From positions 186,001 to 250,000 of the forward strand of contig NZ_CADCXY010000003.1 of assembly GCF_902806985.1 (NCBI RefSeq): a stretch of DNA of 64,000 nucleotides, given 5' to 3'. The notes below the pieces were generated by a model. The model ran no database searches, was not told where the DNA came from, and worked only from the letters and a program-made list of their open reading frames with translations. Below, in pieces: positions 8,679 through 42,169 of the stretch. The stretch is from Pseudidiomarina piscicola. GTDB lineage: Bacteria > Pseudomonadota > Gammaproteobacteria > Enterobacterales > Alteromonadaceae. Every line of letters begins with the position of its first letter. Position 1 is the stretch's first letter. Made by a program: the position numbers and the translations under genes.

Positions 8679-9202
8679 CCTGCCCGGCTGCGTTAAAACC
8701 CTATCGTGGCTTTACCCTCATAGAATTGCTCGTGGTTATGGCCATTATCGCCATCGCCGCCAGCCTCATCGGCCCCATCGCCCTTAACCAGTACGAGCGC
8801 AGCAAAGCCACCGCCGAACGCGAAGCCTTACTCCGCCTCGTCGACCACTACCGCTTCCAAGCCTACAGCCAAAACCAAACCTACACCCTCACCACCAACT
8901 CCAACCAACTACTTATCCAGAGGGGGCAGCCCCTTGTGGATAACTCCGGCACCCAACTTATCCAGAGGGGGCAGCCCCCTCTGGATAACTCAGTGCAGGG
9001 CAGGTTGGCTGCGGGGGTGGGCGAGGTGGTCGAGTTCGAGTATCTGAGTTTTCCGGGGCAAAGGCTTACGCTGAACCGGCATGGTTTTTGGTCGCCGGCG
9101 CAGTTGCATTGGCAGGAGGGTAGCCGCGAGTTAAGCCACGAGCTGAATATGCAGTTGATCGAATTAGGTGAGGAGGGGCGTGATGCAACGCGCAACGACT
9201 AG
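8675..9202 (+). CDS. gspH: Type II secretion minor pseudopilin GspH, carrying two in-frame palindromic inserts
   Basis: The protein has 175 residues. The prepilin signal RG-FTLIELLVVMAII has Glu5. Position between gspF and gspI makes it GspH. Residues about 80-105 are a tandem 15-residue repeat (LIQRGQPLVDNSG and LIQRGQPPLDNSV) encoded by two 31-base palindromes, unlike anything usual in GspH; see the repeat at 8913-8988. The reading frame is intact through the inserts. Codons switch sharply from C-ending before the inserts to G-rich after them. Whether the protein still works is not known; the insert would fall in the globular beta domain. Confidence 0.85.
   Translation: MTCPAALKPYRGFTLIELLVVMAIIAIAASLIGPIALNQYERSKATAEREALLRLVDHYRFQAYSQNQTYTLTTNSNQLLIQRGQPLVDNSGTQLIQRGQPPLDNSVQGRLAAGVGEVVEFEYLSFPGQRLTLNRHGFWSPAQLHWQEGSRELSHELNMQLIELGEEGRDATRND
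8913..8988. repeat. Two tandem 31-bp palindromes inside gspH (GC-rich palindrome family)
   Basis: Copies lie at 8913-8943 and 8958-8988, offset by 45 bases (15 codons). The second is a perfect inverted repeat: arms TTATCCAGAGGGGGC and complement around one central A. The first differs only in its right arm, which reads TTGTGGATAA, the complement of a perfect DnaA-box sequence. Both share the GGGGGCAGCCCC core with the arrays at 36579, 38905, 39299 and 41861, but their TTATCCA arms are unique in this window. Both are read in frame, without stops. Confidence 0.9.
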
Positions 9203-9623
9203 CGGTTTCACCTTGATCGAAATTTTGGTGGCCATGACGATCTTGTTCGCCACGGTGGTGACGGGCGTGATGGCGTTTCAAAACAATATGCAAAACTCGG
9301 TCAAGGCGGCTGAAATCACGCATATATTGACTCAGTTAGATACGGTAAGAAGCAATATCAAGTTTAACTTACAGCATGAAGCTATCACCGAAGGTAGCGA
9401 ACTCTACAGTCAAGACGTACAAATTAGCTGGCAGGCCGAGCAGGTGGCCTATTTACCGCCTGCGCCGAACTTTGATGATGCCGTAGGTGGCTATAATCAA
9501 TACGCCCCGCGCTATCACCTCTATGCCATCACTCTAACCATGCGCTACGGCAGCAGCCAGCGCCAATTCAACTACGAGGAGCTAGTATGGGACGAAAAAA
9601 TTCGTCAAGCGGCTTCACCCTAG
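9183..9623 (+). CDS. gspI: Type II secretion minor pseudopilin GspI
   Basis: The protein has 146 residues. I chose the ATG at 9183 because GAGGAGGGG lies just upstream; a GTG at 9168 is in frame but lacks a ribosome site. The prepilin signal SG-FTLIEILVAMTIL has Glu5. GspI forms the pseudopilus tip with GspJ and GspK, and the three are adjacent here. At 146 residues it is somewhat longer than many GspI proteins. It overlaps gspH by 20 bases and gspJ by 37. Confidence 0.85.
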   Translation: MQRATTSGFTLIEILVAMTILFATVVTGVMAFQNNMQNSVKAAEITHILTQLDTVRSNIKFNLQHEAITEGSELYSQDVQISWQAEQVAYLPPAPNFDDAVGGYNQYAPRYHLYAITLTMRYGSSQRQFNYEELVWDEKIRQAASP

Positions 9624-10273
9624 TTGAAACGCTGATTGCCATGGTGTTGCTATCGCTACTAATGATTAGTGGCGCACTTGCCTATGACTATTTCAGCCAG
9701 AACTGGCAGCGTAACAAAGGCTTAGCCTCCAGCTCTGCAGAACGGCATCACTTAACCAGCTTAGTACAGAAAGTCACTCGCAATAGCTATGCCAAAGCCG
9801 TTTATAACAGTAGCAACCGCCTCGGGTTCTATTTTCTTGGCCGCTACGACGGCTTTACTGCCGTGTCCCATACCAGCGTGCAAAATCCTGATGCCGCCGC
9901 GGTCTACCGAATTTTCCGTGAAACTAACGCCGCCGGTAGCTACCGGCTGGTGTACGAAGAAGCCGTACTTACCAACCTGTATTTGCGCCAAGACGAACAA
10001 GAGCTGCCCTTTAATTTTCGCCGCATTCTGTACGACAACATTAACCAAATTGACTTTCGTTACTATGGCTATCAGTCGCTAAAAGAGCGCAATGAAACCG
10101 CTTCGGGCGAAGGTTCCGAAGTTTACGACTTGCTCTGGTTTAACGACTACGATGGCATGCAGCGGGTGCTGCATCCGCAAGCCATTGAAATTAACCTCAA
10201 CGGTTTTCGCTGGTTCATTGAAGTTCCGGACGCGGTCGAGTCAACCTTATCGAGGTACAGTCGAGATGTTTAA
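9587..10273 (+). CDS. gspJ: Type II secretion minor pseudopilin GspJ
   Basis: The protein has 228 residues, in the GspJ size range. The prepilin signal SSG-FTLVETLIAMVLLS keeps Glu5. The C-terminal part is a globular domain rich in aromatic residues, as expected for a tip subunit. It overlaps gspI and gspK, consistent with one cotranscribed block. Confidence 0.85.
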   Translation: MGRKNSSSGFTLVETLIAMVLLSLLMISGALAYDYFSQNWQRNKGLASSSAERHHLTSLVQKVTRNSYAKAVYNSSNRLGFYFLGRYDGFTAVSHTSVQNPDAAAVYRIFRETNAAGSYRLVYEEAVLTNLYLRQDEQELPFNFRRILYDNINQIDFRYYGYQSLKERNETASGEGSEVYDLLWFNDYDGMQRVLHPQAIEINLNGFRWFIEVPDAVESTLSRYSRDV

Positions 10274-11147
10274 GCGAGCCGGCGCAGACCAGCAACAAGG
10301 CATGGCGCTATTTCAAGTGCTATTGATGGTGGCGATTATTTCGGTACTGCTGCTGGTGATGAGTCAACAAACCCGCTCGTCGGTCGAACGCGCGCAAGCC
10401 ATGCAAGACCAAGCGGAATTGCAGCTGGCTTTAGATTCCACCGCAAACTACCTCGATGCCTTGCTGCTCAGCAACAATTGGCTGCAAGCCCGCAACAACA
10501 GTACGCACCCACTAGCGGACATAAATTTCTATAACTATCCACAACCATTGCGGCTGCCAGACCGGCAGGCCTACGCCGCACTAACGTCCGGCGTCAGCAT
10601 GCAGCTGCAAAACGAAGCTAGTTTGTTAAGCATCAATTTCGCCACGGGCGACATTCAAAATCTTCTGATAAGTCTTGGTACCGCGCCACATCGTGCCGAG
10701 CTTATGGTCAATGAACTAAGGCAATGGCTGAAGCAGCCCGATCAATTGTTTTTTCAGTCTTTTTCAGACCTTACCCAGCTCAATAGTTGGTCCATGGCTG
10801 ACGTAAACTTGATTAGAACTTACACAACCTTAGACGAAAGCTTGTTCAACCCTGCTTGGGCACCCGATGAAGTTTTGCGCATATTGCTTACCCAAGGGCA
10901 AGCTGCTACTATCGAAGTATTAAGAAAAAGTAATGATAATGCTGTGGGAATGCTTCAGGAATTCATTGAGTTAGGTGGAACACTCGATAATGGCATTTAC
11001 CCGGGAGAACAGCAGCGCATTCGCATTACTGCCAAACAAAACGGGTTACAGTTGTATCGGCGCGTCGATTACCGACCACGGCAACCCATACCGTTACGAT
11101 TACATGCCAAGCATTACGAGCAGGTAGCGCAACGAAGCAATGACTAA
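10266..11147 (+). CDS. gspK: Type II secretion minor pseudopilin GspK
   Basis: The protein has 293 residues from the ATG at 10266, which overlaps the end of gspJ by eight bases. A longer frame from 10092 would lie inside gspJ. The leader is followed by QQG-MALFQVLLMVAIIS, which lacks Glu5. Loss of that residue is the family mark of GspK, the subunit that caps the pseudopilus. The length is slightly under the usual 310-330. Confidence 0.85.
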   Translation: MFKRAGADQQQGMALFQVLLMVAIISVLLLVMSQQTRSSVERAQAMQDQAELQLALDSTANYLDALLLSNNWLQARNNSTHPLADINFYNYPQPLRLPDRQAYAALTSGVSMQLQNEASLLSINFATGDIQNLLISLGTAPHRAELMVNELRQWLKQPDQLFFQSFSDLTQLNSWSMADVNLIRTYTTLDESLFNPAWAPDEVLRILLTQGQAATIEVLRKSNDNAVGMLQEFIELGGTLDNGIYPGEQQRIRITAKQNGLQLYRRVDYRPRQPIPLRLHAKHYEQVAQRSND

Positions 11148-11201
11148 AATAATAATTTTCAGCGCAATAATCGGCGCAATAAGAAGAAAAACGATAACAA
11201 C

Positions 11202-12350
11202 ATGGCAGCTTCAACCACGCAGAACACCCAAGAATCGCTGCAGCGCAAGCTAAGTGGCGGCATCGCCACGTTGGTGTGGCGGGTTAACCCGCAAGGGCAA
11301 TGGTTCCACGGCGCAAACCGCGAGCCGTCGCCTGCACCTAAGCGCCGCGTAAGCTGCCTTGTGCTGGCGCGTAGTTATTATCAAGAAAGCTGGAACTCCT
11401 ACACTATTCGCTCGCTGAAAGGCCTGCACAAAGTACTTAAGCAAAAAGACCTCAAACAGAAAGCCGAAGCCCCAGCACAACAACATTTTATCGGGCCCTG
11501 GCGCGACGGCCAGCGTCGTGTACTAACCCTTACCCTCAACCAGCAAGGCCAACAACTGCTGACGAAAGCCTTCACCGTACTGCCTGAGTCGCTGGTGTTG
11601 AGCGCCGCCTGTAGCGAAGGCTTTTACCAAATCGAGCATGGCCAACAGTGCTACTTCCTGTTTAACCAAGAGCAACAGTGGCAAACCGCAGTAAGATCGC
11701 CACTCATGCGCGATGCCGAGCGCGCAAAACTCGCCCTAGGTTGCCCCAGTGAACAGCACACTCAACACATTAACGAAGCGCAATTAGGCGAGCTCATTAC
11801 CCGCGGGGTTAAACAATTAGGCAGCCATTACTGGCGACAAGGTTGGCAAAAGAGTGCCAGCACCCGCTCATTTGCGTGGCGTCCAACGCTCGCCGTCGCA
11901 GCCGTCATCGGCGCTTGCTACTTGGCTCTCAGTAGCGGTTACTTGCTGTTAGAACGGAACTTATTGAACCGGCAACTCGAGCAAATTACGCCTGAAGTAA
12001 GTGAGCTGCTGACGCTGCAAAGTGATTTAGCTGATATCAGTGCGTCCATCGAACAGCTACGTCAGGTGTATGTGAACGCCGACACCATCAACGGCTTTTG
12101 GCAAGTTTTGGCAGTGGTAGAGCAGCACCAAACGCAGCTGACGTTTATGCAAGGCGACGGCCAGCAACTTAGTATTGGCGGGCAAACAGAAAATGCGCTC
12201 GAATTACTGAAAACCCTGCATGGCTTGCCACAGGTCGAAAAGGCAGAATTTGCCTCACCGGTGCGTGGTAGCGGCGGGCAACAACGCTTCCGCATCGATT
12301 TAGCGCTAACCACAGAAACCACAGAAACCGCAGAAGGGGGCACGCAATGA
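11202..12350 (+). CDS. gspL: Type II secretion assembly platform protein GspL-like
   Basis: The protein has 382 residues. It has a cytoplasmic part (1-220), one membrane segment (about 225-245, VAAVIGACYLALSSGYLL), then a coiled segment (LLNRQLEQITPEV) and a ferredoxin-like periplasmic domain ending in beta strands. This is the GspL layout, in which the cytoplasmic domain binds GspE. Sequence conservation is low and the assignment rests largely on topology and position between gspK and gspM. It starts 54 bases after gspK, the largest gap inside the secretion block. Confidence 0.8.
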   Translation: MAASTTQNTQESLQRKLSGGIATLVWRVNPQGQWFHGANREPSPAPKRRVSCLVLARSYYQESWNSYTIRSLKGLHKVLKQKDLKQKAEAPAQQHFIGPWRDGQRRVLTLTLNQQGQQLLTKAFTVLPESLVLSAACSEGFYQIEHGQQCYFLFNQEQQWQTAVRSPLMRDAERAKLALGCPSEQHTQHINEAQLGELITRGVKQLGSHYWRQGWQKSASTRSFAWRPTLAVAAVIGACYLALSSGYLLLERNLLNRQLEQITPEVSELLTLQSDLADISASIEQLRQVYVNADTINGFWQVLAVVEQHQTQLTFMQGDGQQLSIGGQTENALELLKTLHGLPQVEKAEFASPVRGSGGQQRFRIDLALTTETTETAEGGTQ

Positions 12351-12898
12351 CGGATAACCAGCGTACCTTACTTATTGTGGCGGTATTTTTGGCCGCGGTG
12401 CAATTTATCGTCAAACCGATAGTGAATTGGCAGAACCAAGTCGCCACCGAGTTAGCGCTCACTCATGGCCAAGTGCAACGCAGCGAACAGTTACTCGCCC
12501 ATGCCGAGCAGGTAAGAAAAGCGCATCAAAATGCCATCGAGCAACAACAGACACTGATTGAAGGCATGCCCAGCGCCGCCGAAACCACCTTGTTACAGAT
12601 TCAGTTACAAGACCGCCTAGCAACATTGCTGCGCAAACAAGACATTGCCATCGATGAGTTCAATTGGGTTACCGGGGCCCAGCCGCAGACGAACGCCATC
12701 AGCACCCTTAATGCCAAGGTAAAACTTGCTGGGAACATCGAGGCGCTGGCGCAAGCCCAGTTCGCGCTGATGCAAGAGCTGCCCTTTGTACAGCACCAAA
12801 GCATCGAACTGCGGCCGTCACAACGCCGTCGCGGAAATAACTATGAGCTGACGTTTTTACTGCAAGTCGCCGTGCGTCAGCCGGGAGGTGGCTCATGA
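12347..12898 (+). CDS. gspM: Type II secretion protein GspM-like
   Basis: The protein has 183 residues, with a short cytoplasmic start, one membrane segment (about 6-23), a helical stretch rich in Gln/Glu/Ala (about 30-75) and a small periplasmic domain. This is the GspM topology; GspM partners GspL. It overlaps both neighbours by four bases. A PilO-type protein has the same shape, but the genomic context favours GspM. Confidence 0.75.
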   Translation: MTDNQRTLLIVAVFLAAVQFIVKPIVNWQNQVATELALTHGQVQRSEQLLAHAEQVRKAHQNAIEQQQTLIEGMPSAAETTLLQIQLQDRLATLLRKQDIAIDEFNWVTGAQPQTNAISTLNAKVKLAGNIEALAQAQFALMQELPFVQHQSIELRPSQRRRGNNYELTFLLQVAVRQPGGGS

Positions 12899-13398
12899 AA
12901 GCTTGGCAGCAACTTCCCGCCAGCGTGAAATTACTAGCCGCCGCGATTGTCGTGGTTTGTTTGATGGACTTTATGCAGCGGGTTTACATCGCGGGCAACG
13001 ATACGACCCGAACCTTTGATCCGATGGCGGGACTACAGGCCGATTTGCCTGCGGCACAAATGAGTGACGACGTATCGACCTGGTTACAAAAACGTCGCGA
13101 AGCCGCCCAGCAGCAACAAGAACAGCAAGCGAGCAGCAAACCACAAGCTGAATTAATGGACGGTGGCGTCAACTTAGGCGACATGCGCGTTCGCGTGCGA
13201 GGTATTTACACCTCGAATAACCAACAGCGAGTGGCACTTATCGATACCCAACAACTGGCTAATCGCAGGGTCGAGATCACAGAGATCAGCGAAGGCTTCG
13301 AACTAAATGGCTTTACTGTTAGCAAAATAAGCGTCAATAGCGTCACCTTTATTGGGGCGGACGACGAAACTGTCACCCTACCGGTGTTCGACTATTAG
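12895..13398 (+). CDS. GspC-like protein, homology-region domain only
   Basis: The protein has 167 residues. One membrane segment (about 10-27) is followed by a Gln-rich linker (about 62-85) and a small beta domain (about 95-167) with the pattern MRVRVRGIYTSNNQQRVALI and later EGFELNGFTVSKISVNSVTF. This resembles the HR domain by which GspC contacts the secretin GspD. No PDZ or coiled-coil domain follows, so it is much shorter than typical GspC (about 270-300). PilP, the type IV pilus counterpart, is the alternative, but it would be a lipoprotein and none of the lipobox is seen. It lies directly before gspD. Confidence 0.65.
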   Translation: MKAWQQLPASVKLLAAAIVVVCLMDFMQRVYIAGNDTTRTFDPMAGLQADLPAAQMSDDVSTWLQKRREAAQQQQEQQASSKPQAELMDGGVNLGDMRVRVRGIYTSNNQQRVALIDTQQLANRRVEITEISEGFELNGFTVSKISVNSVTFIGADDETVTLPVFDY

Positions 13399-13422
13399 CG
13401 CCGCAGAATAAACGAGGAAATT

Positions 13423-15441
13423 ATGAGCCGAATGCACCTAAAGTACTCTGTGGTAATGCTCGCGGCAGCTAGCGTGCTCAGCTGTGCACAGACACCGGAC
13501 CCGCTCAACGTAAACCCAAAGCGCTTCGAATCTGATCAAATCAAGTATTCAGAAAGTGCCGACCAGGAAGAAGCGCGCCTGCAAAGTAACGGTTTCGAGC
13601 AACTACGTTCGATGAATTACGACAATTATTTAAAGCGCAGTGATAGCGATCCGGCCAAAGAATTTAGCGCGACAGACTCACACTCGCTAAACGCCAATGA
13701 ATTGCCGATGCGTAACTTTATTGAAACCGTATTCGGCACCGCCTTAGGTGTGAATTATGTGATTGCGACGCAAGGCGACTTAAAGCAGCAAGTGACCTTG
13801 AACCTAACCAACAGTGTCAGCTCACGTGAGTTATTCACCCTTTCGCGTCAGTTGCTGGTGGATAACGGTCTTGATGTGTCGCTGCGCGAAGGCACCTATT
13901 ATATTTATCCACGCACCGATGCGCGTACCGACGTAGTGATTGGCTTTGGCCGCCGGTATTCGGATGTGCCCGATACCGCACAGAACATTATGCAAGTGGT
14001 GCCGCTCAAATATGGCCTCAAGACCTCACTTGAACGCACCTTACGCAACCTATCAAGTGTCAAAGTATCTGCCGACCAAGTGCAAAATGCGTTTTTTGTC
14101 GAAGGTAGTCGCGCTGAAATCGTACGTTTTCTCGATCTTGTTCATCTACTCGATGTGCCAGCCAACCGTGGGCGCCATGTGGCGATGGTCGAGCTGACTT
14201 ATTTGTCACCGATGGACTACATCGACCAGCTAAAAGAGCTCATGGAAGCCGAAGGTATTAGTATAGGTCGACAGGCAGGTATGGGCGTTGCGGTACTCAC
14301 GGTGCCGGTGAATCAACTGGGCGCGGTGGCAATGTTCGCCTCAAATGAAGAGGTACTCGATCGCGCGCGCTATTGGACCCAACAAATCGACCAAGCTAGT
14401 AAAGGCCCAGAAAAGGGCTATTATATCTACCATCCGCGCTATGCCCGAGCATCTGATCTTGGCGCCTCAATCGGCAACCTCATGGGCAGCACGCAAATGG
14501 GCGCCAACAGTGCCCGCGATACCCAATCAGCGCAAGGCGGCGCAACGGGCCAAGCCGGCGCAGGCATGAGCGCGAGCAACGAAGATATGCGCATGACCGT
14601 GGATGAGCGCTCCAATTCGATTATTTTTTACACCACCGGCGGCGATTACAAAGCCTTACTTCCAGTGGTGCGCCGACTCGATGTGATGCCCAAGCAAATT
14701 GTCTTAGATGCAACCATTGCCGAAGTCACGTTAACCGACGAGTTCTCTCAAGGCTTTGAGTTTGCGTTTCGCAATGGGAACTTCAGTGGCGGCACCTATG
14801 GTACATTGGGAGCACAAGACATCGGTGGCCTGCGGCTTAACTGGGTCGACGGGTTTGACCGTTTTATTGCCAACCTGCAACAGAGCTCCAATTTGGTCAA
14901 CGTGCTGTCGAACCCGACATTAGTGGTGCGCGACGGTGTGGCTGCCTCAATCAACGTCGGTAACGATATACCCACGGTCGGCTCAACCACCTTCACACCC
15001 AATTTAGAAAGCCAGACACAGTCAGTGGAATACCGCAAAACCGGGGTGCAACTCACGGTTACACCAACCATCAACGCACAAGGCTTAGTGGTATTGCAGA
15101 TCAATCAAACGATTTCTAATACCTCACCCACTGGACCCTCGGTGGCCGGCAACCCGAGTATTTTTGAGCGTGCACTCCAAACAGAGGTGATTGCACAAAG
15201 TGGTCAAACTATTCTTTTGGGTGGACTCATCTCGGAAAATAACTCCAGCGGCGACAGCAAAGTGCCCCTCTTGGGCGATATCCCCTTGCTAGGTAACTTG
15301 TTTAAATCTAAAAAAGAATCGAATGAAAAGACGGAACTGGTGATATTCATTACCCCTCGTATCATCGAGCGTACAGAACAATGGGAAGAAATCCGAAAAA
15401 CAATTGCGGATGGCTTGACAACTATCTCGGTTAACGACTAA
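13423..15441 (+). CDS. gspD: Type II secretion outer-membrane secretin GspD
   Basis: The protein has 672 residues. The signal ends in VLSCAQ, so it may be a lipoprotein secretin (Cys21). N-terminal ring domains span about 85-320, a Gly/Ala/Ser-rich spacer lies at about 362-390, and the secretin core covers about 400-650. The core has VLSNPTLVVRDGVAASINVG and the closing motif GDIPLLGNLFKSK with FITPRII. It forms the outer-membrane channel. It is last in the gene order here, where canonical operons place it second. A ribosome site (GAGGAA) precedes the ATG. Confidence 0.95.
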   Translation: MSRMHLKYSVVMLAAASVLSCAQTPDPLNVNPKRFESDQIKYSESADQEEARLQSNGFEQLRSMNYDNYLKRSDSDPAKEFSATDSHSLNANELPMRNFIETVFGTALGVNYVIATQGDLKQQVTLNLTNSVSSRELFTLSRQLLVDNGLDVSLREGTYYIYPRTDARTDVVIGFGRRYSDVPDTAQNIMQVVPLKYGLKTSLERTLRNLSSVKVSADQVQNAFFVEGSRAEIVRFLDLVHLLDVPANRGRHVAMVELTYLSPMDYIDQLKELMEAEGISIGRQAGMGVAVLTVPVNQLGAVAMFASNEEVLDRARYWTQQIDQASKGPEKGYYIYHPRYARASDLGASIGNLMGSTQMGANSARDTQSAQGGATGQAGAGMSASNEDMRMTVDERSNSIIFYTTGGDYKALLPVVRRLDVMPKQIVLDATIAEVTLTDEFSQGFEFAFRNGNFSGGTYGTLGAQDIGGLRLNWVDGFDRFIANLQQSSNLVNVLSNPTLVVRDGVAASINVGNDIPTVGSTTFTPNLESQTQSVEYRKTGVQLTVTPTINAQGLVVLQINQTISNTSPTGPSVAGNPSIFERALQTEVIAQSGQTILLGGLISENNSSGDSKVPLLGDIPLLGNLFKSKKESNEKTELVIFITPRIIERTEQWEEIRKTIADGLTTISVND

Positions 15442-15740
15442 TCTCTTTAATGACTTTGCAAAAATGTTGAGCTCATGGATATATAGAAAACCATAATTAA
15501 CAACCTCAACAGCAAAGCTTTTTAGGGGCTCTGTTTGAAGAGTCAACAGTATTTTGAACTAAGTTTTTGCCTGAGTGTTCGGTCGCGTGCTTAATCACCT
15601 CGCTGCTGAACCTGCAACTCGCAAAAACTGGGCTCAAAAGAAAATCGACGCGATCACCATAGGTGGTCAACTTGATAACAACAGGAGTTAAGGCTTGAAC
15701 AATAGCTGGAAGCTCTTATTTCATGAAATTGGAGAACATC
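15442..15740 (+). other. Long leader region before the secreted-protein gene
   Basis: These 299 bases carry no credible ORF. The region probably holds the promoter and an untranslated leader for the large secreted protein, which has its own terminator. GGAG at 15731-15734, six bases before ATG 15741, is a good ribosome site and decides the start there. I could not pick a sigma-70 promoter with confidence. Confidence 0.5.
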
Positions 15741-17495: not shown

Positions 17496-17537
17496 TAGCT
17501 AGCTCTGACTAGTATTAACATCGAAAATCGTTATGAT

Positions 17538-17563
17538 AAAACGCTCCTTCGGGAGCGTTTTTT
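17538..17563 (+). terminator. Strong intrinsic terminator after the secreted-protein gene
   Basis: AAACGCTCC (17539-17547) pairs perfectly with GGAGCGTTT (17552-17560) across a TTCG tetraloop, followed by more T residues. This ends the transcript of the secreted protein and isolates it from the flippase gene at 17605. Confidence 0.95.
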
Positions 17564-17604
17564 ATTTGACGAGTCATTTTATACAGTAAGGACACTTAAC
17601 CACC

Positions 17605-18936: not shown

Positions 18937-19055
18937 TTAATTGTTTCATAACTATGACACTAATTTGATAAACTTAGCCGCACGTAGTTTTGCGTTAGCT
19001 AAATACGCGACCAATCGCTCTGCGAGCACGAAATACTAAATAGAAGAAACGACTA

Positions 19056-20147: not shown

Positions 20148-20973
20148 CAAGCCCTCGCTGGTAATATTCTCTAGCGCAACTTTCCGTCGGAGCATCCGTG
20201 ATTTACGTTGGTGGTGGCTTGGTCTGCCATTGGTATTGGCTTTGAGTTTGGCTGCAATAAAGTGGTTCAGTGTCGAACAATTTGAGGCTGAGACTGTGTT
20301 AGCACCGAGTGAGGAGCGCGGTGGTGGTCTAGCTGATATGGCGGGAGGAATAGCGGGTCTTGCAGGCCTTGCAGGGTTCAATTTAAGCAGCGGAAAAATT
20401 AACGACACGCAGATGGCCGTTGAGGTTCTTAAATCGCGAGACTTCCTTCACGCGTTTATTGAGCGCCATGGGCTGATGCCGCTTTTACTTGGCGACGAAG
20501 CCTCAGCCGAAGAACTTCAGCAGGTGTGGAGAGGCTATAACGAGTTTCGTGAACGATTCGTCATAGAGTATGATCGCGCGAAAGGAATTGTTACCCTTCG
20601 AATGAGCGATGCCGATGCAGAAGCTGCAGCATCGTGGTTACGACTATTAGTGAAAGATATCAATATTCACATGCGCGAACGCGAAAGGGCGCGTGTAGAG
20701 CAGCAAATTTCTTACTTGACTAACAAGGCCGATGAAATACAGCAAGCTGATGTACGTGAGTCCTTGTATCGCCTGTTACAAGAGCAATACAACCGCGCCA
20801 TGTTAGTAGAAGTTAACGACGACTACGTGTTTGAGACTATAGACCCAGCGGTTGCACCGCATCAACCCAAAGGCCTTCATGCGATGACTTGGTTACTGGT
20901 GGGCGCGTTACTGGGTGGCTTCATAATGATTGTCGTGACGTTATTGCGCAGCTATGTTCGCAGCACCCCATAG
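20134..20973 (+). CDS. Wzz-like polysaccharide chain-length/co-polymerase protein
   Basis: The protein has 279 residues. A membrane segment at about 24-42 and another at about 250-270 enclose a periplasmic helical region. A Gly/Ala/Leu-rich stretch near residue 68-85 is common in polysaccharide co-polymerases. No kinase domain is present. It should set chain length together with the Wzy at 21766. It overlaps the next gene, which has the same topology. Confidence 0.8.
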   Translation: MTMSSKPSLVIFSSATFRRSIRDLRWWWLGLPLVLALSLAAIKWFSVEQFEAETVLAPSEERGGGLADMAGGIAGLAGLAGFNLSSGKINDTQMAVEVLKSRDFLHAFIERHGLMPLLLGDEASAEELQQVWRGYNEFRERFVIEYDRAKGIVTLRMSDADAEAAASWLRLLVKDINIHMRERERARVEQQISYLTNKADEIQQADVRESLYRLLQEQYNRAMLVEVNDDYVFETIDPAVAPHQPKGLHAMTWLLVGALLGGFIMIVVTLLRSYVRSTP

Positions 20974-27171: not shown

Positions 27172-27181
27172 ACACGAGCGC

Positions 27182-27910: not shown

Positions 27911-28062
27911 GCGTGTGTCAGAGTTCTATAAGGGAAAGGTTTTAAGATCTTACACGGGTGGCAAAAAACTGCAACGCCAACCAGCTAAAGGGTGGCAGCA
28001 CTGCAGCGCTTAGTTTACACTGCTTCGCACATAAGTAGAGTTCGATTGGGAAAGGAAGAACC

Positions 28063-29229: not shown

Positions 29230-29253
29230 CGAACAACAGGGACAACCGATTCG

Positions 29254-30354: not shown

Positions 30355-30379
30355 TAAAACAATAATAGGGGAAGATGGC

Positions 30380-33136: not shown

Positions 33137-33165
33137 GCCCAATCTTGCACATAAATGGATGAATA

Positions 33166-34614: not shown

Positions 34615-35220
34615 ATGGACAACCCAACCACGCACGTTTTATGTAACGACCCTACCATCTATATTATGGACGACTTCTTCACCGAGTCTGAGGGCCAGCA
34701 TTTAATTAAGTCTGCACAAAAGCAGATGGCGCGCGCAAAAGTCAGCTCCGACACCGAGGGTGTTTTGAGCAAGGCGCGTACCAATCAACTTGCCTGGGTT
34801 GGTCATACCCATGACATGATCGTGACCTATTTGGGCACTCGTATCGCCAACGAAGTCGGTTTGCCACTCGAAAACGCCGAGAGCTTTCAAGTGATTCACT
34901 ACGGCCAAGACGAAGAGTATCGTGCCCATTTTGACGCTTACGACATGAACACCGAGCGCGGTAAACGCTGCACCGCGCGTGGTGGTCAGCGCATGGTAAC
35001 GGTGCTTGGTTACATTAATACCCCAGAAGGCGGTGGCTCGACCTATTTTCCGAAACTCGATTTAGCGATTCAACCTAAACCAGGTCGACTGGTGCTGTTT
35101 GAAAATATTGTGCGCGGCTCGACCGATGTGCACCCGAAAAGCTTACATGCCGGCATGCCCGTGACTGCGGGCGAGAAATGGGCCTTTAACTTGTGGTTTC
35201 ATGAGCGGGAGTTTAAATAA
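34615..35220 (+). CDS. 2-oxoglutarate/Fe(II)-dependent oxygenase, prolyl-4-hydroxylase type
   Basis: The protein has 201 residues. The iron ligands are visible as HFD (in YRAHFDAYDMNTERG) and the distal His in HPKSLHAGMPV, with the 2-oxoglutarate Lys in GEKWAFNLWFH. The fold matches the P4Hc domain. The substrate is unknown. It starts directly after the pgi stop and ends directly before the Wzi-like start, so it is in the same operon. Confidence 0.85.
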   Translation: MDNPTTHVLCNDPTIYIMDDFFTESEGQHLIKSAQKQMARAKVSSDTEGVLSKARTNQLAWVGHTHDMIVTYLGTRIANEVGLPLENAESFQVIHYGQDEEYRAHFDAYDMNTERGKRCTARGGQRMVTVLGYINTPEGGGSTYFPKLDLAIQPKPGRLVLFENIVRGSTDVHPKSLHAGMPVTAGEKWAFNLWFHEREFK

Positions 35221-36576
35221 GTGTTGGGGCTGGCTTGTGGGGGCTTGCGTTGTGGGCGGCGCGCGTTTGCAACCTTTGCTGTGGCACTGACGCTGACACT
35301 GAGCAGCGTTCACGTTTCTGCGACCCCTTGGCTTGATGCCGAAGAGCTACATGTGCGCCACTCGCTGCAAGTGCTGGCCGATGCCGGTCTGTTGAGCGCA
35401 CCGGTGACCACCTTCCCGGTAATGTGGCGACCGCTTTTAGCAGACTTATCAGCCCTTGACCCACAGCAGCTTTCTGACTTACAGCAGGTCGCCTATTACA
35501 AATTAATGGCCTTGTTGAGCTATCACAAGGGCAGCGCCTATACCTCGGTGCGCGTCGCCGGCGTCACCGATACCGGGGCTCAACCAAGCTACAACCGCCC
35601 CATGGAAGGCAAAGCCTCGGTTGCAGTTACCCACGAGCGCATCGGTGATTCGGTGGCAGGGCGTATTCGCACCACCTACCGCGACAGCTCTTTGAGCCTG
35701 AACCCGAGAGTGCGCACCGAAAACCTATCATGGCAGGGCAGCTACGCAGCAGCTATGGCCGGCGACTGGGTGTTAAGTGTCGATCAGCTGCATACTTGGT
35801 GGTCACCAGGTTCTGCGCAAGACGGCTTGCATACCGTCAGTACCTTGCCGCTACGAAGTGTACGTGCGGTGTATTCACCGACTTCGTCGGCTTCGGCGTA
35901 CGCTGCGTTAAGTTTCACCGCGTTCTATGGCGAAAGTGAAGAACAGTTTCTGGTGGACCCCAGCACCGACTTATGGCGCCGTGAAAACGCTTATGGCGCA
36001 CGCCTAGGTTGGCGCGCCCATGAACTTATCGAGCTGGGCCTGCATTACACCGCCTCCGAACTGGGTTACGACGAAGCACAAAACCTCGTGTTCGACGCAC
36101 GACTCACCTTACCCTACCAGTTTAATTTTTACGGCAGCGTTAGTGAACATGAAGTAACGGGGCCTTACAGCATGGGCGACGTACGCGGCAACGGCCACAT
36201 GGTAGGCCTCGACTGGAGCTTCGCCGAACCCGCGCAGCTGTCACGCATCTACGCCGAACACGACCGCAGCGACCTGCGCAGCCTCACCACCATTGGTTAT
36301 GCCTCGTTCCGCAACAGCGGCCTCGGCTGGGACTTCCGCATCCAAGACACCCGCATCCGCCGGCAGCATAACAACTTCGGCCGCGCCCCACGCTTCGAAC
36401 TACTGCCTGAGTACCGCCCCGGCATCGCCCGCATCGAACAATTCGAAGCCGCCGTGTTCTACCCCATCGGCAACGCCCTCATCGAACTCGGCCTACAAGC
36501 CTGGCAAGACACCTACCAAACCGGCCGCAAAGACCAATTCGGCAACCTCATCGCCACCTTCGAACTCCGCTGGTAA
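35221..36576 (+). CDS. wzi: Capsule-assembly Wzi-like outer-membrane barrel
   Basis: The protein has 451 residues. It begins with GTG immediately after the previous stop; a signal peptide ends near HVSATP. A short helical N-terminal part precedes many amphipathic strands and an aromatic C-terminus (FELRW), as in outer-membrane barrels. It fits the Wzi capsule-assembly family, which binds and organises capsule at the surface. The last 130 codons are markedly C-ending and G-poor, unlike the start of the gene; a palindrome array begins three bases after the stop. Confidence 0.8.
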   Translation: MLGLACGGLRCGRRAFATFAVALTLTLSSVHVSATPWLDAEELHVRHSLQVLADAGLLSAPVTTFPVMWRPLLADLSALDPQQLSDLQQVAYYKLMALLSYHKGSAYTSVRVAGVTDTGAQPSYNRPMEGKASVAVTHERIGDSVAGRIRTTYRDSSLSLNPRVRTENLSWQGSYAAAMAGDWVLSVDQLHTWWSPGSAQDGLHTVSTLPLRSVRAVYSPTSSASAYAALSFTAFYGESEEQFLVDPSTDLWRRENAYGARLGWRAHELIELGLHYTASELGYDEAQNLVFDARLTLPYQFNFYGSVSEHEVTGPYSMGDVRGNGHMVGLDWSFAEPAQLSRIYAEHDRSDLRSLTTIGYASFRNSGLGWDFRIQDTRIRRQHNNFGRAPRFELLPEYRPGIARIEQFEAAVFYPIGNALIELGLQAWQDTYQTGRKDQFGNLIATFELRW

Positions 36577-36578
36577 CC

Positions 36579-36674
36579 CCCAGAGGGGGCAGCCCTTACA
36601 ATGTAAAGACCATTCCACCAGAGGGGGCAGCCCTTACAATGTAAAGACGTTTTCCGCAGGGGGGCTGCCCCCCC
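36579..36674 (+). repeat. Three-hairpin GC-rich palindrome array, left border of ATP-grasp/methyltransferase cassette
   Basis: Two 38-base units starting at 36580 and 36618 each read CCAGAGGGGGCAGCCC and then the palindrome TTACAATGTAA (36596-36606, 36634-36644). A third hairpin (GCAGGGGGGCTGCCCCC, from about 36656) ends the array. It lies between the convergent ends of the Wzi-like and ATP-grasp genes; the latter's stop is in the last bases. The same three-part array occurs in inverted orientation at 39299-39399. Confidence 0.9.
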
Positions 36675-38437
36675 TAAACTTTCAGCATATCTCGTACAAG
36701 CGGGTGTAGGTTTTGGTGATGCTCGCTGAGGATAACGCGGTCGATGCGGTCGCAGGGGAGGCCTCGCTTGAGCGGCTCGTCGTCGGTAATGTTCAGCACG
36801 AGCGCATCAACGGTGGGAGTGGTGAGCAGCATCATGGCGTTGGCGAACAGCGAGCGCGCGGTACTCAAGGTCTCTTCGTTGATGCCGGCTTGACTGGGTC
36901 GGCACCAGCCGATGTGCTCGGCACCTTCAGTACGAAGCTCGCGACAAACATCGTCGAACACGGTGCTGGACGCGTCGCCGGCAATCACGACCACCGGAAT
37001 TCGACCATTTCCTTGTACGCGTTTTTGCAACAGCAAGGGGTACAAATGCCCGGCGGTGGTGGAGCCAAGATCAGGCTGGGCATTGACTTCGCAAATCACG
37101 CCTCGATTGTTGGGTTCGCGCCACGACCGTGAAATATCCGGAATAATGAGATCAACGCCGGCTAAATCAAGGCGCAAGGCCTGCGCGGCACGGGTTGCGA
37201 GCGTGACGTTATCGGGATGCACCTGCGCGGTGACCACCACAGGGCGCCCGCCATTGGCGACATTCGCTGTCCGCCGTAGCGTAATAAACTGACCCTTGGC
37301 CGGCACCGCCGTGAGCTTATGCCCCTGCGATTGCAGCAGTTGCGTGGCTTCGCTATTGACCGTCAGCGGCTGCAAGGTTTGCTGTATCCCTGGGCGGCGT
37401 TGATCCGTTTGATTCTCTTCGGCAATAAGCTGTTCGATGGTTTGCGTGCCGTCGCCGGTGACGCCAGCTGGAACTCGCTGCACCGCCCACACCATCGCAT
37501 TGTCGAGCACCGTCAGGCGAAAATCATGGCCGATGACGTGTTTTTCAAGCAGCACACGCGGTGAATGTTTGTGCGCAATGGCGTACGCGGCCGTAACCTC
37601 CTGCGGGTTCTGCAGGTTGGCCGCAACACCGACGCCGCCGTCGAGGTTTAGCGGTTTAACCACAACAGGATAGCCCAAGGCCTGTGCGGCCTGTAGAGCA
37701 TCTTGTTGATTCGTGACTTCATGGTGAGGCGCCGTCGGCAAGCCCGCCTGCCGCAACCGTATGGCCGCCGCTTGTTTGTCGCGGGCGGTACGCACCGCGA
37801 GGCTTGGTGTGTGCTCGGTCGAGGTGTGCTCAAGCCAGCTTGCTTTTACACCCTGGCCAAACTGGGTAAGCATGCCATGCAGCGGCGTCACGGGTAGGTC
37901 GAGTTGGTACGCGGCGTTGAGCAACAGCGGGCTAACGCTGAACCGGCTCGCCTCTTTCAGTTTCTCGAGCTGTTGCTGCAGCCGGTGGGTATCGTGCTTG
38001 CCGGTTTGCAGGGCGTGATTCAACGACGCAACGGTGAGTTGCCAAGCGTCGACCACAAGGCTTGGCTCGCAATGAGGAATGGGCAATGGCACCTTTGTCC
38101 AGGGCGCTTGGGCACCGCGAGGCGGCGGCTCAATGGAAGACGCATCGAGCAGCGGGAACCCCAAATAAGTGAGCAGCGCCCGTGTCGCCTCGGCAATGTG
38201 TTGGGCGAGGGCGGGCCAGTGTTGCAACTCGTCGGGTGTGGCTGTGGTGTTCGAATCGGCATAGAGCTCCGTCATCCACCATTTAAAAAACGCTAGTACC
38301 TTAGGGGTTTGCGTCGCTTCTTTGAGCTTGGCGGTGGGTTGCATCGTGACCATCATGCAGGGCTGACGGCGCTGCTTAAGATATCCCGGAAAGTAGTGAA
38401 AAGGACCTGCCTGCAAATACTGCGCGGAATTATTCAT
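36674..38437 (-). CDS. ATP-grasp ligase related to cyanophycin synthetase, without Mur-ligase domain
   Basis: The protein has 587 residues. After a poorly conserved N-terminal half (about 1-220), the ATP-grasp region carries KQAAAIRLRQAGLPTAPH, GYPVVVKPLNLDGGVGV, LLEKHVIGHDFRLTVLDN, VPAGVTGDGTQTIEQLI and ICEVNAQPDL, which closely resemble the cyanophycin synthetase/RimK type. The C-terminal ~140 residues contain VVVIAGDASST but no full Mur-ligase domain, so it is not a complete CphA (about 870 residues). It probably joins an amino acid or carboxylate to an acceptor. It overlaps the methyltransferase by eight bases, downstream of it in one operon. Confidence 0.8.
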   Translation of the reverse strand: MNNSAQYLQAGPFHYFPGYLKQRRQPCMMVTMQPTAKLKEATQTPKVLAFFKWWMTELYADSNTTATPDELQHWPALAQHIAEATRALLTYLGFPLLDASSIEPPPRGAQAPWTKVPLPIPHCEPSLVVDAWQLTVASLNHALQTGKHDTHRLQQQLEKLKEASRFSVSPLLLNAAYQLDLPVTPLHGMLTQFGQGVKASWLEHTSTEHTPSLAVRTARDKQAAAIRLRQAGLPTAPHHEVTNQQDALQAAQALGYPVVVKPLNLDGGVGVAANLQNPQEVTAAYAIAHKHSPRVLLEKHVIGHDFRLTVLDNAMVWAVQRVPAGVTGDGTQTIEQLIAEENQTDQRRPGIQQTLQPLTVNSEATQLLQSQGHKLTAVPAKGQFITLRRTANVANGGRPVVVTAQVHPDNVTLATRAAQALRLDLAGVDLIIPDISRSWREPNNRGVICEVNAQPDLGSTTAGHLYPLLLQKRVQGNGRIPVVVIAGDASSTVFDDVCRELRTEGAEHIGWCRPSQAGINEETLSTARSLFANAMMLLTTPTVDALVLNITDDEPLKRGLPCDRIDRVILSEHHQNLHPLVRDMLKV

Positions 38438-39239
38438 CGGTCACCACCGCCGAAATGGTCATTAGTTGCCAGGCCATGCCGACCGTGCCGTCGGGATAAT
38501 CGGTGACGCCGAGTTGCTGCTCTATTGCGCGTTGAGTGTCGGCCACGTTCGACTTCTGCAAGTCGAAGAGCTCGTGGCAGAACGTGGCCATGTCGTCGCG
38601 GTTTGCGAACGTCCAGTGGAAGTCGTTCAGGTGACGCTGCTCAATAACAAAGCCTGCGCTTTCAAGATCTTGCAATGTTGATCGGTCGAGAAAGATGCCA
38701 TCGTGGCCGGTACTGTTGAAGTCGCCCACATAACCATCGAGGAATGTCGCCACCTTCGAGCCTTTGGCTACATCAGAAAGCGCCAACCGCCCGCCCGGCT
38801 TAATCACTCGCTTTAGCTCACGGAACAACGGCCGCTTGTCAGCCAAATGATGCACCCCAGCTAAGCTTATCGCGACATCAATTTCATCATCCGCCCACGG
38901 CAACGGCAGAAGGGGCAGCCCCCCTTGCGCACCGTCCCCTTTTTCAGAGGGGGCAGCCCCCCTGCTGAAATCATCTTTACATTGTAAGGGCTGCCCCCCC
39001 TGTCCGTGATTAGTGAAACTCGCACAGGGCTCGTGCGCTTGGTACTCACACCCCGGTGGCAGAAAGGCGCATAAATAGGCACCGCCGGCGGGTACATCGG
39101 CAATTTTCATGCCTGGGGCCAATCGACCGGCGGCAATCACCTGCTCAAATTCTTGCCGACGCGCCTCGGGAAACCGCAGCATAGCGCGGTCGTACGCGGA
39201 TCCGCGCTGCTCAAAATGTTCTTGGTAGGATTTAGCCAA
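38430..39239 (-). CDS. SAM-dependent class I methyltransferase carrying an in-frame palindromic insert
   Basis: The protein has 269 residues. The SAM site IADVPAGGAYLCAFLP lies near residue 46. The later LPLPWADDEIDVAISLAGVHHL and RVIKPGGRLALSDV are standard methyltransferase-11-type motifs. Between them, residues about 78-113 (TNHGQGGQPLQC through GGLPLLPLP) are encoded by a three-hairpin palindrome array, in the place where relatives would pass straight to the PW/DD strand. The frame is kept. It is first in a two-gene operon with the ATP-grasp gene; the substrate is unknown. Confidence 0.8.
   Translation of the reverse strand: MAKSYQEHFEQRGSAYDRAMLRFPEARRQEFEQVIAAGRLAPGMKIADVPAGGAYLCAFLPPGCEYQAHEPCASFTNHGQGGQPLQCKDDFSRGAAPSEKGDGAQGGLPLLPLPWADDEIDVAISLAGVHHLADKRPLFRELKRVIKPGGRLALSDVAKGSKVATFLDGYVGDFNSTGHDGIFLDRSTLQDLESAGFVIEQRHLNDFHWTFANRDDMATFCHELFDLQKSNVADTQRAIEQQLGVTDYPDGTVGMAWQLMTISAVVTDE
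38905..39002 (-). repeat. Three-hairpin palindrome array inside the methyltransferase gene
   Basis: Cores lie at 38905-38928, 38945-38967 and 38975-39002; the last includes TTACATTGTAA (38977-38987). On the coding strand the order is CAGCCCTTACAATGTAA then a GCAGGGGGGCTGCCCCC hairpin, the same as the right half of the array at 36579-36674, followed by one extra hairpin. The array is translated without a stop. Confidence 0.9.
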
Positions 39240-39298
39240 CCGGCACCTCAGTTATTGTTCTAATTATGTAGGTTATTGACAGTATAGACACATAATTT

Positions 39299-39399
39299 GC
39301 AGAGGGGGCAGCCCCCCTCGAAAAACTCTCCTTACAATGTAGGGGCTGCCCCCTCTGGTGGAAGTGTCTTTACAATGTAAGGGCTGCCCCCTCTGGTGG
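39299..39399 (-). repeat. Three-hairpin palindrome array, right border of the cassette, inverted copy
   Basis: Read on the minus strand it gives two 38-base units (TTACA-type palindromes at 39370-39380 and 39332-39342) and then a GAGGGGGGCTGCCCCCTC hairpin. By eye it aligns without gaps to 36579-36674 at roughly 85% identity over about 95 bases, in inverted orientation. It lies between the methyltransferase start and rfaH, so it is also in the rfaH upstream region. Confidence 0.9.
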
Positions 39400-39458
39400 T
39401 TTACTTTGCGGGGGAGCGGTGTAAAATGTCGGGTCGGTTGAAACGAAGGGAATGTGAG

Positions 39459-39974
39459 ATGTCGGAGCAGGGGCTCGAAAGGTGGTATGTGGTGCAGGCG
39501 AAGCCTCGGCAGGAGCTGCGTGCACAGGCGAACCTCGAGAACCAGGGCATCGAAGCGGCGTTGCCGATGATCACGCTGGAGCGTATTCGTCGTGGCAAGC
39601 GCACTAAGGTTCGTGAACCGCTCTTCCCAGGTTATATTTTCGTAAAGCTTTCCAATTACGCTGACAAATTTTATAAGATTCGGAGTACCTTTGGGGTTTC
39701 GAAAGTGCTACAATTCGGCACTTCGCCTGCACAGATTTCAGGTGAGCTTGTACAAAATTTGTTAGCGCTTGATGGCGATTCACCTGAAATCAAAGAGTTA
39801 CAGCGACATGCTGTGCCGCAGGTGGGTGATAAGGTGCACATCCTCGAAGGCCCCTTTAAAGGTTTAATTGCCGAGATCATCAAGCTCGACGGGGAGTCAC
39901 GCTGTATTGTTCTGCTCGATTTCTTGCATAAGCAAGTGCGCGCAGGGTTCGACCTTACCGAGGTTCAGCGTTAA
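39459..39974 (+). CDS. rfaH: RfaH, operon-specific transcription antiterminator (NusG paralogue)
   Basis: The protein has 171 residues from ATG 39459; the frame is open from 39396, but the earlier starts lie in or beside the repeat array and add residues outside the family. The N-terminal NGN domain begins RWYVVQAKPRQELRAQANLENQGIEAALP, with REPLFPGYIFVKL. The C-terminal KOW domain has VGDKVHILEGPFKGLIAEI. RfaH binds RNA polymerase paused at ops sites and prevents termination. An exact ops sequence lies 113 bases after its stop, so it should act on the operon that follows. The first codons are strongly G-rich. Confidence 0.93.
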   Translation: MSEQGLERWYVVQAKPRQELRAQANLENQGIEAALPMITLERIRRGKRTKVREPLFPGYIFVKLSNYADKFYKIRSTFGVSKVLQFGTSPAQISGELVQNLLALDGDSPEIKELQRHAVPQVGDKVHILEGPFKGLIAEIIKLDGESRCIVLLDFLHKQVRAGFDLTEVQR

Positions 39975-40086
39975 GAATATGTAAATGTCACGCCAGGAGG
40001 CGGGGCAGTGCTAGAAATAAGCACGAGCGCAGGGAAAAGTAGTACATCCGCGGAGGCGGAGCGCATTTAGGAGCGGCAACCCTAGG

Positions 40087-40098
40087 GGCGGTAGCGTG
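40087..40098 (+). promoter_or_regulatory. ops element (RfaH loading site, JUMPStart core)
   Basis: GGCGGTAGCGTG is an exact match to the E. coli ops element. It sits in the untranslated leader between rfaH and the gfcA-like gene. RfaH recruited here should carry polymerase through the gfc-wza-wzb-wzc and sugar genes, including the terminator at 40536. I saw no second exact copy in the window. Confidence 0.93.
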
Positions 40099-40261
40099 CC
40101 TAAAGAGCCCGCACAAAGCCCGCACACAGCGAGCACAAAACGAGCACACATCAAACCACTCGAATTTCGCTTGTTCATTTATTCTTCAACTGCTATAACT
40201 AGGCGTGAGAGCGTAAGGACGCGAAACACGCAATTTAAAGCATTAATTAAGGAGCTTACAC

Positions 40262-40522
40262 ATGAAAGCATTAACAACTATTGCAGCCGCAGCTGCATTG
40301 GCATTTAGCGCATCAGCTGTTGCAAACCCAGAGCCGAAGCCAGAGCCAAAACCAGCTCCTCAGCCAGTTGTATCTGGTCAGCCTGCTGAAACCGTGACTA
40401 CGATCGGTGGTACGTCAATCACTACCGCAACGCTCGTAGCTGGTGCCATCGTAGTCGGAACCGTTGTAGTTGTTGCAACGAGCGACGATGACGACACGCC
40501 AACAACAGTTACAAATAACTAA
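40262..40522 (+). CDS. gfcA: Small secreted Pro/Thr-rich protein, GfcA/YjbE-like
   Basis: The protein has 86 residues. The signal peptide ends near residue 21 (SAVA). A Pro-Glu-Lys-Pro run follows (about 23-37), then a Thr/Gly segment, a hydrophobic stretch (about 58-73, LVAGAIVVGTVVVVAT), an acidic DDDD patch and a Thr/Asn tail. It shares these pieces with the protein at 1206-1520, but the Pro-rich run is N-terminal here and C-terminal there. GAG six bases before the start and a terminator 14 bases after the stop suggest high expression. The symbol rests on operon position, as gfcA is not well conserved. Confidence 0.75.
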   Translation: MKALTTIAAAAALAFSASAVANPEPKPEPKPAPQPVVSGQPAETVTTIGGTSITTATLVAGAIVVGTVVVVATSDDDDTPTTVTNN

Positions 40523-40535
40523 GAAATTGAAAGTT

Positions 40536-40566
40536 AAAAGCCGGCTGCGAAGTCGGCTTTTCCTTT
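40536..40566 (+). terminator. Intrinsic terminator after gfcA-like gene
   Basis: AAAAGCCGGCT pairs with AGTCGGCTTTT (one G-T pair) around a GCGA tetraloop, followed by TCCTTTT. As at 1540-1574, it lies directly after the small secreted protein and before the lipoprotein gene, so it should attenuate the operon unless RfaH is loaded at the ops site upstream. Confidence 0.85.
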
Positions 40567-40597
40567 TGGCAAAACGATAAAAATAATACGCCAGCCA

Positions 40598-42169
40598 ATG
40601 TCCCGCACACATCGTTCGATACGTGTAGGTTTGCTGACCTCGACGATTCTTGCACTAAGCAGCGGGATGTCGGGATGCTCTGTCTTTAGCGATCTAACCG
40701 GTAGCAACCAAGCAAGCAACCAACCGCAAAGCAGCCAAGTCGACTCGAACCTCGATCCGAATCTCGACTCGAATCTCGATCCAAATAATGAAGCGACAGC
40801 CCTATGGCGGTCGTTAGACTTATTGTTTGGCGAAGCGCCCGAAGCGCCGCCGCGCTCGGAACTCAGTCAATTACCTTATCCGGTAAGCTACGTGGAGTTC
40901 GACGACGAGCCGCGCAGCATTTTAGTGCTTGGCGCCACCGGCACCCATGGCCAGTATTGGTACTCGGCAGGTAACGAAGCTCTGGTACGCTGGCAAGGCC
41001 GCGTAATACGTACCGCCGCATTGAAACGCGAAAACTTGGTGCACAGCGGTAACCTGGCAAGCGACCCGCTCAGCTGCCACCTAAGCAAAAGCAACAACCA
41101 AAACAACAACCAAAGCACCCAGCAATGCCCAACCAGCTGGCAACGCAGCATTCAAATTCACCGGCCGGTAGAGCACTTCAATGCCCACCAACCGGAATAC
41201 GAAATCGTCAGCTTCAGCCTAACCTCGCAGCTGCGCCGTACGGGCAACACCCTGATTGAAGAAGGCGAAGCCACACGCACCATCGCCGGTGAGCAGGTAG
41301 AACAACATAGCTTCACCAACAGCTTCGAGCTCAGCAGCAACGGCGAATACGTGATCAGCAGCCGCCAGTGGCTTAGCCCGAAACACGGCTACGTGACCCT
41401 CGATATGGTTAACCTGGCAGGCCCCAACGCACCGCGCGGCGAAAGCAAAAACGCATTGATCGGCATGCCGGTACAAACCATCAACGGCAACCAAGTGCCG
41501 CGCTTAAACGACTTCGTGAGCGCACTGCCGAATCAGTTTTACCCAGATACCTACTGGCTAGGCGCACGTATTTACAGCGATAGCCTCGACGAGCGCTTTG
41601 AACGCCGTCGCGCTGGCATGCTCAAACGCTTGCGCATGCTGGCCCAAGTGTACACACACGACCAACAGCCAGAGCTCGAAGCCCAAGCGCGCGAGCTCAT
41701 CAAGCAATTTCAAAGCTGGCCCCTTAGAGCCAGCTACAAGCACGGCCTGACACCGGCGCTGATGCAAACCACATTAGAAGAGAACCCGAAGCTGAACCCG
41801 CACGATGCCGACGAAACCTACGAATTTGCCGCACCGGGGCGTAGCCAAAATCTGCAAATAGTAGGGGGGGCAGCCCCCTCTGCGAAGGTGGCGTGGCACA
41901 TCGCGCCAAACGGTGCTATCCGCCGGCTAGAAAGGGCTGCCGCGCTAGGGCTTAGCTGGCAACAAGACTTTGGCGTAAGCGAAAACGACCCTGGGTTGTT
42001 ATTTGTGGGCATTAACGAAGCCGAATTACCGAAAGGCTTCCGCGATATCAACGCGCAGCTGGCCATGTTCCTACAACACTGGAACTACGCCCAGCCAAGC
42101 GCCCAGCCAAGCGCCCAGCCAAGCCGCCAGCAAGGCCAAGAGCCGCCACAAAAAGGAGCCCGCAACTAA
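40598..42169 (+). CDS. GfcB-GfcC (YjbF-YjbG) fusion lipoprotein
   Basis: The protein has 523 residues. It has a lipoprotein signal ending MSGC, a low-complexity Asn/Asp/Leu repeat (about 47-66), a YjbF/GfcB domain (about 70-275, with QWLSPKHGYVTLDMVNL), then a GfcC/YjbG domain (about 290-505: QVPRLNDFVSALPNQFYPDTYWLGARI and later FVGINEAELPKGFRDINAQL). Locus 1 encodes the same two domains as separate proteins (1621 and 2310). The fusion would tether GfcC to the outer membrane. A palindrome copy lies at codons about 421-429. The tail is a repeated AQPS. The stop overlaps gfcD. Confidence 0.85.
   Translation: MSRTHRSIRVGLLTSTILALSSGMSGCSVFSDLTGSNQASNQPQSSQVDSNLDPNLDSNLDPNNEATALWRSLDLLFGEAPEAPPRSELSQLPYPVSYVEFDDEPRSILVLGATGTHGQYWYSAGNEALVRWQGRVIRTAALKRENLVHSGNLASDPLSCHLSKSNNQNNNQSTQQCPTSWQRSIQIHRPVEHFNAHQPEYEIVSFSLTSQLRRTGNTLIEEGEATRTIAGEQVEQHSFTNSFELSSNGEYVISSRQWLSPKHGYVTLDMVNLAGPNAPRGESKNALIGMPVQTINGNQVPRLNDFVSALPNQFYPDTYWLGARIYSDSLDERFERRRAGMLKRLRMLAQVYTHDQQPELEAQARELIKQFQSWPLRASYKHGLTPALMQTTLEENPKLNPHDADETYEFAAPGRSQNLQIVGGAAPSAKVAWHIAPNGAIRRLERAAALGLSWQQDFGVSENDPGLLFVGINEAELPKGFRDINAQLAMFLQHWNYAQPSAQPSAQPSRQQGQEPPQKGARN
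41861..41883 (+). repeat. Single GC-rich palindrome inside the gfcB-gfcC fusion gene
   Basis: GTAGGGGGGGCAGCCCCC, followed by TCTGC, matches the core of the palindrome family and is read in frame as VGGAAPSA. It has the core only, without the TTACAATGTAA or TTATCCA parts. Confidence 0.8.

Follow-up and report, generated by a model that had tools for sequence, protein, structure and literature searches.

A REPIN-like palindrome family in Pseudidiomarina piscicola and the single-copy RAYT-type transposase to which it probably belongs

The closest described systems to the one treated here are the repetitive extragenic palindromes (REPs), the REPINs (PMC3116915; PMC8266576; PMC8049555) and the REP-associated tyrosine transposases (RAYTs). 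REPs near stop codons are on record (PMC3733652), as are REPs lying in frame within genes (PMC3733652; PMC6006769); in recB of two Xanthomonas species, different REPs are reported at about the same place, and for the CGTC repeats the same source describes no linkage to transposase genes (PMC3733652). Subclass 2.1, the second-largest class of these transposases in a 2018 survey (PMC6006769), is characterized in its Table 1 by the motifs NHVH and YIELNP and a median length of 238 aa; the survey reports no REP-like repeats for this subclass by automatic or manual search, and states that it probably equals the TIRYT group of an earlier paper (PMC3733652). Here, we describe a family of GGGC[A/T]GCCC-type palindromes, first noticed in a 64,000-nucleotide stretch of the Pseudidiomarina piscicola genome (contig NZ_CADCXY010000003.1, positions 186,001 to 250,000; hereafter, the window). 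Very probably, this is a non-autonomous, REPIN-like family of a Y1 transposase that is encoded by a single-copy gene and is of the RAYT type (TnpA-REP-like; by its motifs, subclass 2.1).

All twelve cores that the sequence-only reading had counted were located, in the same five places of the window (split 2+3+3+3+1). Allowing up to one mismatch, GGGGCAGCCCC has 20 strand-hits in the window where 0.79 would be expected, and none of 100 shuffles reaches 20; across the whole genome (G000; 2,510,096 bases in 16 contigs, with the window at C3:186001-250000) the 11-mer GGGGGCAGCCC occurs in 50 exact copies, versus none for its reversed-letter control. The cores fall into 24 groups, or 23 after removal of a native coding motif in cysQ. 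A group contains one, two, or three cores; the distance between them is mostly 37-38 bp, in some cases 31 or 20 bp, and an inverted member is usually present. The pairs and triplets have what defines a REPIN, namely two inverted palindromes at fixed spacing in a repeated unit. The spacer between cores is often TTACAATGTAAAGA, TTACA follows 30 of 57 cores, and the five bases preceding the 9-base core are AGAGG or AGGGG in 47 of the 57. When folded as single strands, three of the five window groups are much more stable than their shuffles (z of -8.0, -4.3, and -4.3), while the other two have no clear excess (z of -1.9 and -1.5); an Rfam search of the window returned no match at the gathering score.

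The sequence-only reading had proposed a search for a RAYT-type transposase with linked copies, and such a gene is present: Y1_Tnp has one match in the G000 genome, a gene encoding 230 aa at C3:285916-286605, roughly 36 kb past the window. As is characteristic of a RAYT, it occurs as a single copy and is flanked by core groups on both sides. Its Pfam Y1_Tnp score is 51 bits (cut-off 23), the HUH motif NHVH and the tyrosine motif YIELNP are invariant or nearly so across its family, and the best match of the family profile among solved structures is the E. coli TnpA-REP (4ER8; E 6.2e-7). No DnaA_C- or HTH-like C-terminal domain, which is a feature of TIRYT and subclass 2.1, was found, as Pfam up to an E-value of 10 gave Y1_Tnp only, in a search whose filters may hide weak matches. 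By these two motifs and its length, the predicted protein fits RAYT subclass 2.1.

The groups are crowded around this gene. Contig C3, with 12.7% of the genome, holds 18 of the 23 groups (binomial tail 1e-12), a share that is biased because the finding was picked from a window on this contig; 8 of the 23 lie within 20 kb of the transposase gene (tail 6e-8, computed for 7). Similar crowding is seen in relatives within the genus (given here by their G numbers), as 13 of 39 core positions in G016 lie within 20 kb of its transposase gene, and the 20 kb around the gene hold 30 cores in G025 and 18 in G012. In G025 (C7:270001-290000), cores within groups are ∼20-24 bp apart rather than 38, and several are inside gsp-like open reading frames (ORFs). 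A k-mer test of local dispersal at 65 related transposase loci yielded a mixed picture, since some of the random control flanks fell on repeats, and is not relied on. A homolog of the transposase (E ≤1e-10) is encoded in 12 of 26 genus genomes, in six of them (G000 included) at ≥56% identity and in the rest at 34-42%; close homologs have their own core type nearby, and distant homologs have other palindromes. A contig search with a single-protein query found nothing, and an alignment query gave matches.

Comparison with the sister species G005, the nearest relative found, suggests a further property of the family. Among the 19 groups on C3, cysQ was set aside and five had no usable anchors, which leaves 13 comparable sites, and 10 of these are occupied in both species. 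The flanking DNA at the ten shared sites is 69-83% identical, and the dinucleotide to the left of the core is GG for 22 of 25 cores in G000 and AA for 25 of 29 in G005, with no AA among the G000 cores and no GG among the G005 cores, translated copies included. Over all fetched stretches, each species likewise has a commonest pair at this position: GG in G000 (50/57), AA in G005 (50/65), GA in G016 (18/19), AA in G012 (46/57), GG in G002 (12/20), AG in G025 (25/30), and AG in G003 (9/17), which has no transposase. Within a site, the spacers resemble one another more than they do across sites (for nine sites, the observed mean is attained in 6 of 5000 permutations), although conserved orientation of the units could add to this likeness; the result supports inherited sites with renewed cores. 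Occupied shared sites with species-wide core types look like concerted evolution of dispersed palindromes. G005 also has a direct tandem of three cores at 17-bp spacing, beside a 38-bp array (C6, 228108-228142).

By our reading of their positions, 20 of the 23 groups in G000 are extragenic or at the edge of a gene, several of them within 10 bp of a stop codon, with the ORFs of 94-142 aa that span five of these 20 treated as presumed spurious overlaps; the remaining three are inside genes (gspH, a methyltransferase gene, and gfc). The sequence-only reading had presented an in-gene family, and this holds insofar as the repeats also occur in frame within genes, but the family is mainly extragenic or at gene edges. 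The triplet between the two converging genes begins just past the stop codon at 36576 and touches the 3′ end of the ORF at 36674-38437. Six of the window cores are within three ORFs and are translated without stops, as had been claimed, and a typical unit is stop-free in four of its six frames.

Whether the cores in these three genes are in-frame insertions differs from gene to gene (Table 1). At gspH, the claim stands: the loop has 52 aa in G000, 40 in G005, 43 in G012, and 37 in G016 and in G002, all of which have the transposase, versus 27 in G004 and G018 and 24 in G003 and G008, which do not, and the core arms of the palindromes in the five carrier species are the types common in each species. 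In G007, also without the transposase, the loop has 61 aa but is unrelated, AT-rich, and free of any palindrome core. The palindrome is present in gspH in all five species that have both the gene and the transposase and in none of the five that have the gene but not the transposase, counts that take no account of kinship; the test that the sequence-only reading had set, the same residues in homologs across distant genera, did not refute it there. The claim also stands for the methyltransferase, in which the insert region comprises about 30 aa in G000 versus about 8 in three relatives. G000 and G005 each have three cores in this gene, the insert is absent from G002, G004, and G016, G012 has another insert that is core-free, and G003 has a deletion. 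The gfc core, present in G000 only, did not hold up: it is ruled out as a net insertion, since this region of 28 aa adds no length relative to the 26-35 aa of seven relatives. Close to its start, the gfc ORF contains a short tandem repeat with a 12-bp period (window 40740-40786). In G025, three gsp-like ORFs may be additional in-frame cases. In a survey of ORFs with an internal core, 38 of 74 have both flanks of the core conserved in another species; they are not counted as insertions, as native coding motifs or alternative frames at one place make up many of them.

Table 1. Palindromes of the window and the genes that contain them (window coordinates).
Feature	Position	Strand	Remarks
gspH-like pseudopilin gene with in-frame insert, loop 52 aa	8675..9202	+	TIGR01708 best but under its cut-off
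First gspH palindrome, TTATCC-arm, core GGGGGCAGCCCC	8913..8943	.	inverted-repeat arms
Second gspH palindrome, perfect 31-nt palindrome except centre	8958..8988	.	
Core triplet, 38 and 37 bp apart, between two converging genes	36579..36676	.	
Methyltransferase gene with in-frame insert	38430..39239	-	
Core triplet, 38 and 37 bp apart, in frame within methyltransferase gene	38905..39002	.	
Core triplet, 37 and 38 bp apart, between methyltransferase gene and ORF 39396-39974	39299..39399	.	
gfcB-gfcC-like ORF	40598..42169	+	YjbF and Caps_syn_GfcC_N domains
Lone core within gfcB-gfcC ORF, no net length gain versus relatives	41861..41883	.	

The core in cysQ (L141:7357-7375) is also ruled out as an insertion, given that its native motif, LIHKGQP, aligns in six relatives without change of length. 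In G000, G005, G003, and G012, this motif itself carries the core, beside the DnaA-box-like sequence TTATCCACA. The same sequence adjoins other cores and is directed at them (L114:6162, 7104, 7152, and 13459; L118:5686 and 5710; L127:15533; and window 8913-8988). It lies within 8 nt of 7 of 65 cores in G005 (0.04 expected) and 2 of 47 in G000 (0.01 expected), counts in which the copies are not independent and the native cysQ place is included; none was found near the cores examined in G002, G012, G016, and G025 (0/13, 0/18, 0/11, and 0/30).

Several observations weigh against assigning the family to this transposase. In addition to the neglect of kinship in the gspH counts, the NCBIfam RAYT model (NF047646) scores 73 bits, below its cut-off of 80, and the 57 cores examined have no conserved GTAG as a foot like the GTAG/GTGG of classical REPs. 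No exact element ends or target duplications were found, and no movement was seen. Sites 8, 13, and 18 of the 13 comparable sites are empty in G005, two of them within rearranged intervals, and in G012 the stretch read has close copies on just one side of the gene. Furthermore, G003, G018, and G007, which lack the transposase, have 28, 15, and 10 strand-hits of AGGGCWGCCC (0, 1, and 0 in the controls), and G003, with no transposase match, has 17 cores in 60 kb (C1:10001-70000); a lone core in G003, at the position expected for the transposase gene, reads as loss of that gene. Despite these points, assignment to the RAYT-type transposase is well favored over two rival accounts of the family as a whole. 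In-frame copies in gspH and the methyltransferase gene could suggest a family of in-gene palindromes without a transposase, akin to the Rickettsia palindromic elements (RPEs), but this is very improbable, given the linked transposase and the extragenic or gene-edge location of 20 of the 23 groups. Chance or codon usage does account for one place, the native LIHKGQP motif of cysQ; as an explanation of the whole family it has practically no credibility and is ruled out by the 50 copies versus none in the control, the fixed spacing, and the single prevailing arm type in each species, and the chance frequency that the sequence-only reading had offered as its other test was accordingly not found.

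The joint change of cores at shared sites is a further question, to which transposase renewal in place, gene conversion, selection for binding, and repeated insertion at hot spots are rival answers. One tentative possibility is that the subclass-2.1 RAYT renews dispersed palindromes in place, such that positions are kept within flanks at ∼75% identity, and cores are rewritten to the current type of the lineage, and with them, in frame, loops in proteins such as GspH and the methyltransferase. It is rather doubtful that the shared sites are instead hot spots of insertion that each species filled on its own, with no renewal of old copies. Many groups do lie just past stop codons, which may be preferred targets, and the number and orientation of cores differ at some shared sites; however, spacers are more alike within the same site, and as there are about 27 groups in 300 kb of G005, 10 matches among 13 sites would require very strong hot spots, coding loops included. 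The palindromes could also be selected protein-binding sites or hairpins at fixed places, changing jointly because the binding protein (perhaps a domesticated transposase) shifted its preference. Positions and the ∼38-bp spacing are indeed common to G000 and G005 despite flanks of 69-83% identity, and both arms of the palindrome change, but such selection seems unlikely given the copies within unrelated genes, the variation of copy number by site, the crowding at the transposase, and the species-specific sites.

If the family does belong to the transposase, the HUH enzyme would recognize the hairpin on single-stranded DNA and cut beside it, and would place copies mostly nearby. Copies in genes may survive when they fall in a loop, have a length that is a multiple of three, and keep an open frame. 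Existing copies may be renewed in place, either by the transposase or by gene conversion, and with such renewal the copies of one lineage would come to match. Independent point mutation offers no easy explanation for lineage-wide core types at shared sites, and such sites would allow direct study of how dispersed repeats are homogenized in bacteria. Renewal in place by the transposase, if true, would mean that loops of host proteins (GspH and the methyltransferase) are rewritten in frame by a transposase. Additionally, a clear cognate repeat family gives the subclass 2.1 transposase a testable substrate.

The family shares features with several known systems. The sequence-only reading saw an element different in kind from REPs, which does not stand, as in-frame REPs in genes were already described in the papers cited above (PMC3733652; PMC6006769). 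Like the intragenic GTAG and CGTC REPs (including Rickettsia RPE-4 and RPE-6), the palindromes are translated in frame in unrelated genes, but unlike the CGTC REPs they are linked to a transposase and most copies are extragenic; the in-gene family without a transposase that marks the Rickettsia palindromic elements is not what is found here. The likeness to TIRYT and the TIRtrons (Di Nocera et al., 2013; PMC3733652) and to TnpA subclass 2.1 (PMC6006769) lies in a single Y1 transposase with NHVH and YIELNP (230 aa here, versus the median of 238), flanked by inverted repeats without GTAG, and some families of terminal inverted repeats (TIRs) are described as repeated in the genome as dimers or clusters (PMC3733652). 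The usual TIRs share GGGGWSAS, whereas the terminal repeats here have the palindromic core GGGCWGCCC, in dozens of copies that are crowded at the gene and also occur in genes. In 65 of 79 related loci (14 were left out as too short, with the gene at the edge, or with the motif not found), GGGGWSAS is present in both flanks of 37 (3 in the reversed control) and GGGCWGCCC in both flanks of 2; therefore, the Pseudidiomarina core may be a palindromic, amplified offshoot of the usual TIR. Literature searches on concerted evolution or conserved position of REPINs turned up nothing on point. To the extent that the literature was searched, three features are new: a family of dispersed palindromes associated with a transposase that has subclass 2.1 motifs, the crowding of the copies at the gene, and core types that prevail across a lineage at shared sites, coding sites included. 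With REPs and REPINs and their RAYT (TnpA-REP), the family has in common short palindromes in inverted pairs at fixed spacing, mostly extragenic, and a single-copy transposase flanked by its own type. It differs from them in having no GTAG foot, a transposase of a class said to have no REPs, strong local crowding, and a sister species with cores of another type at the shared sites.

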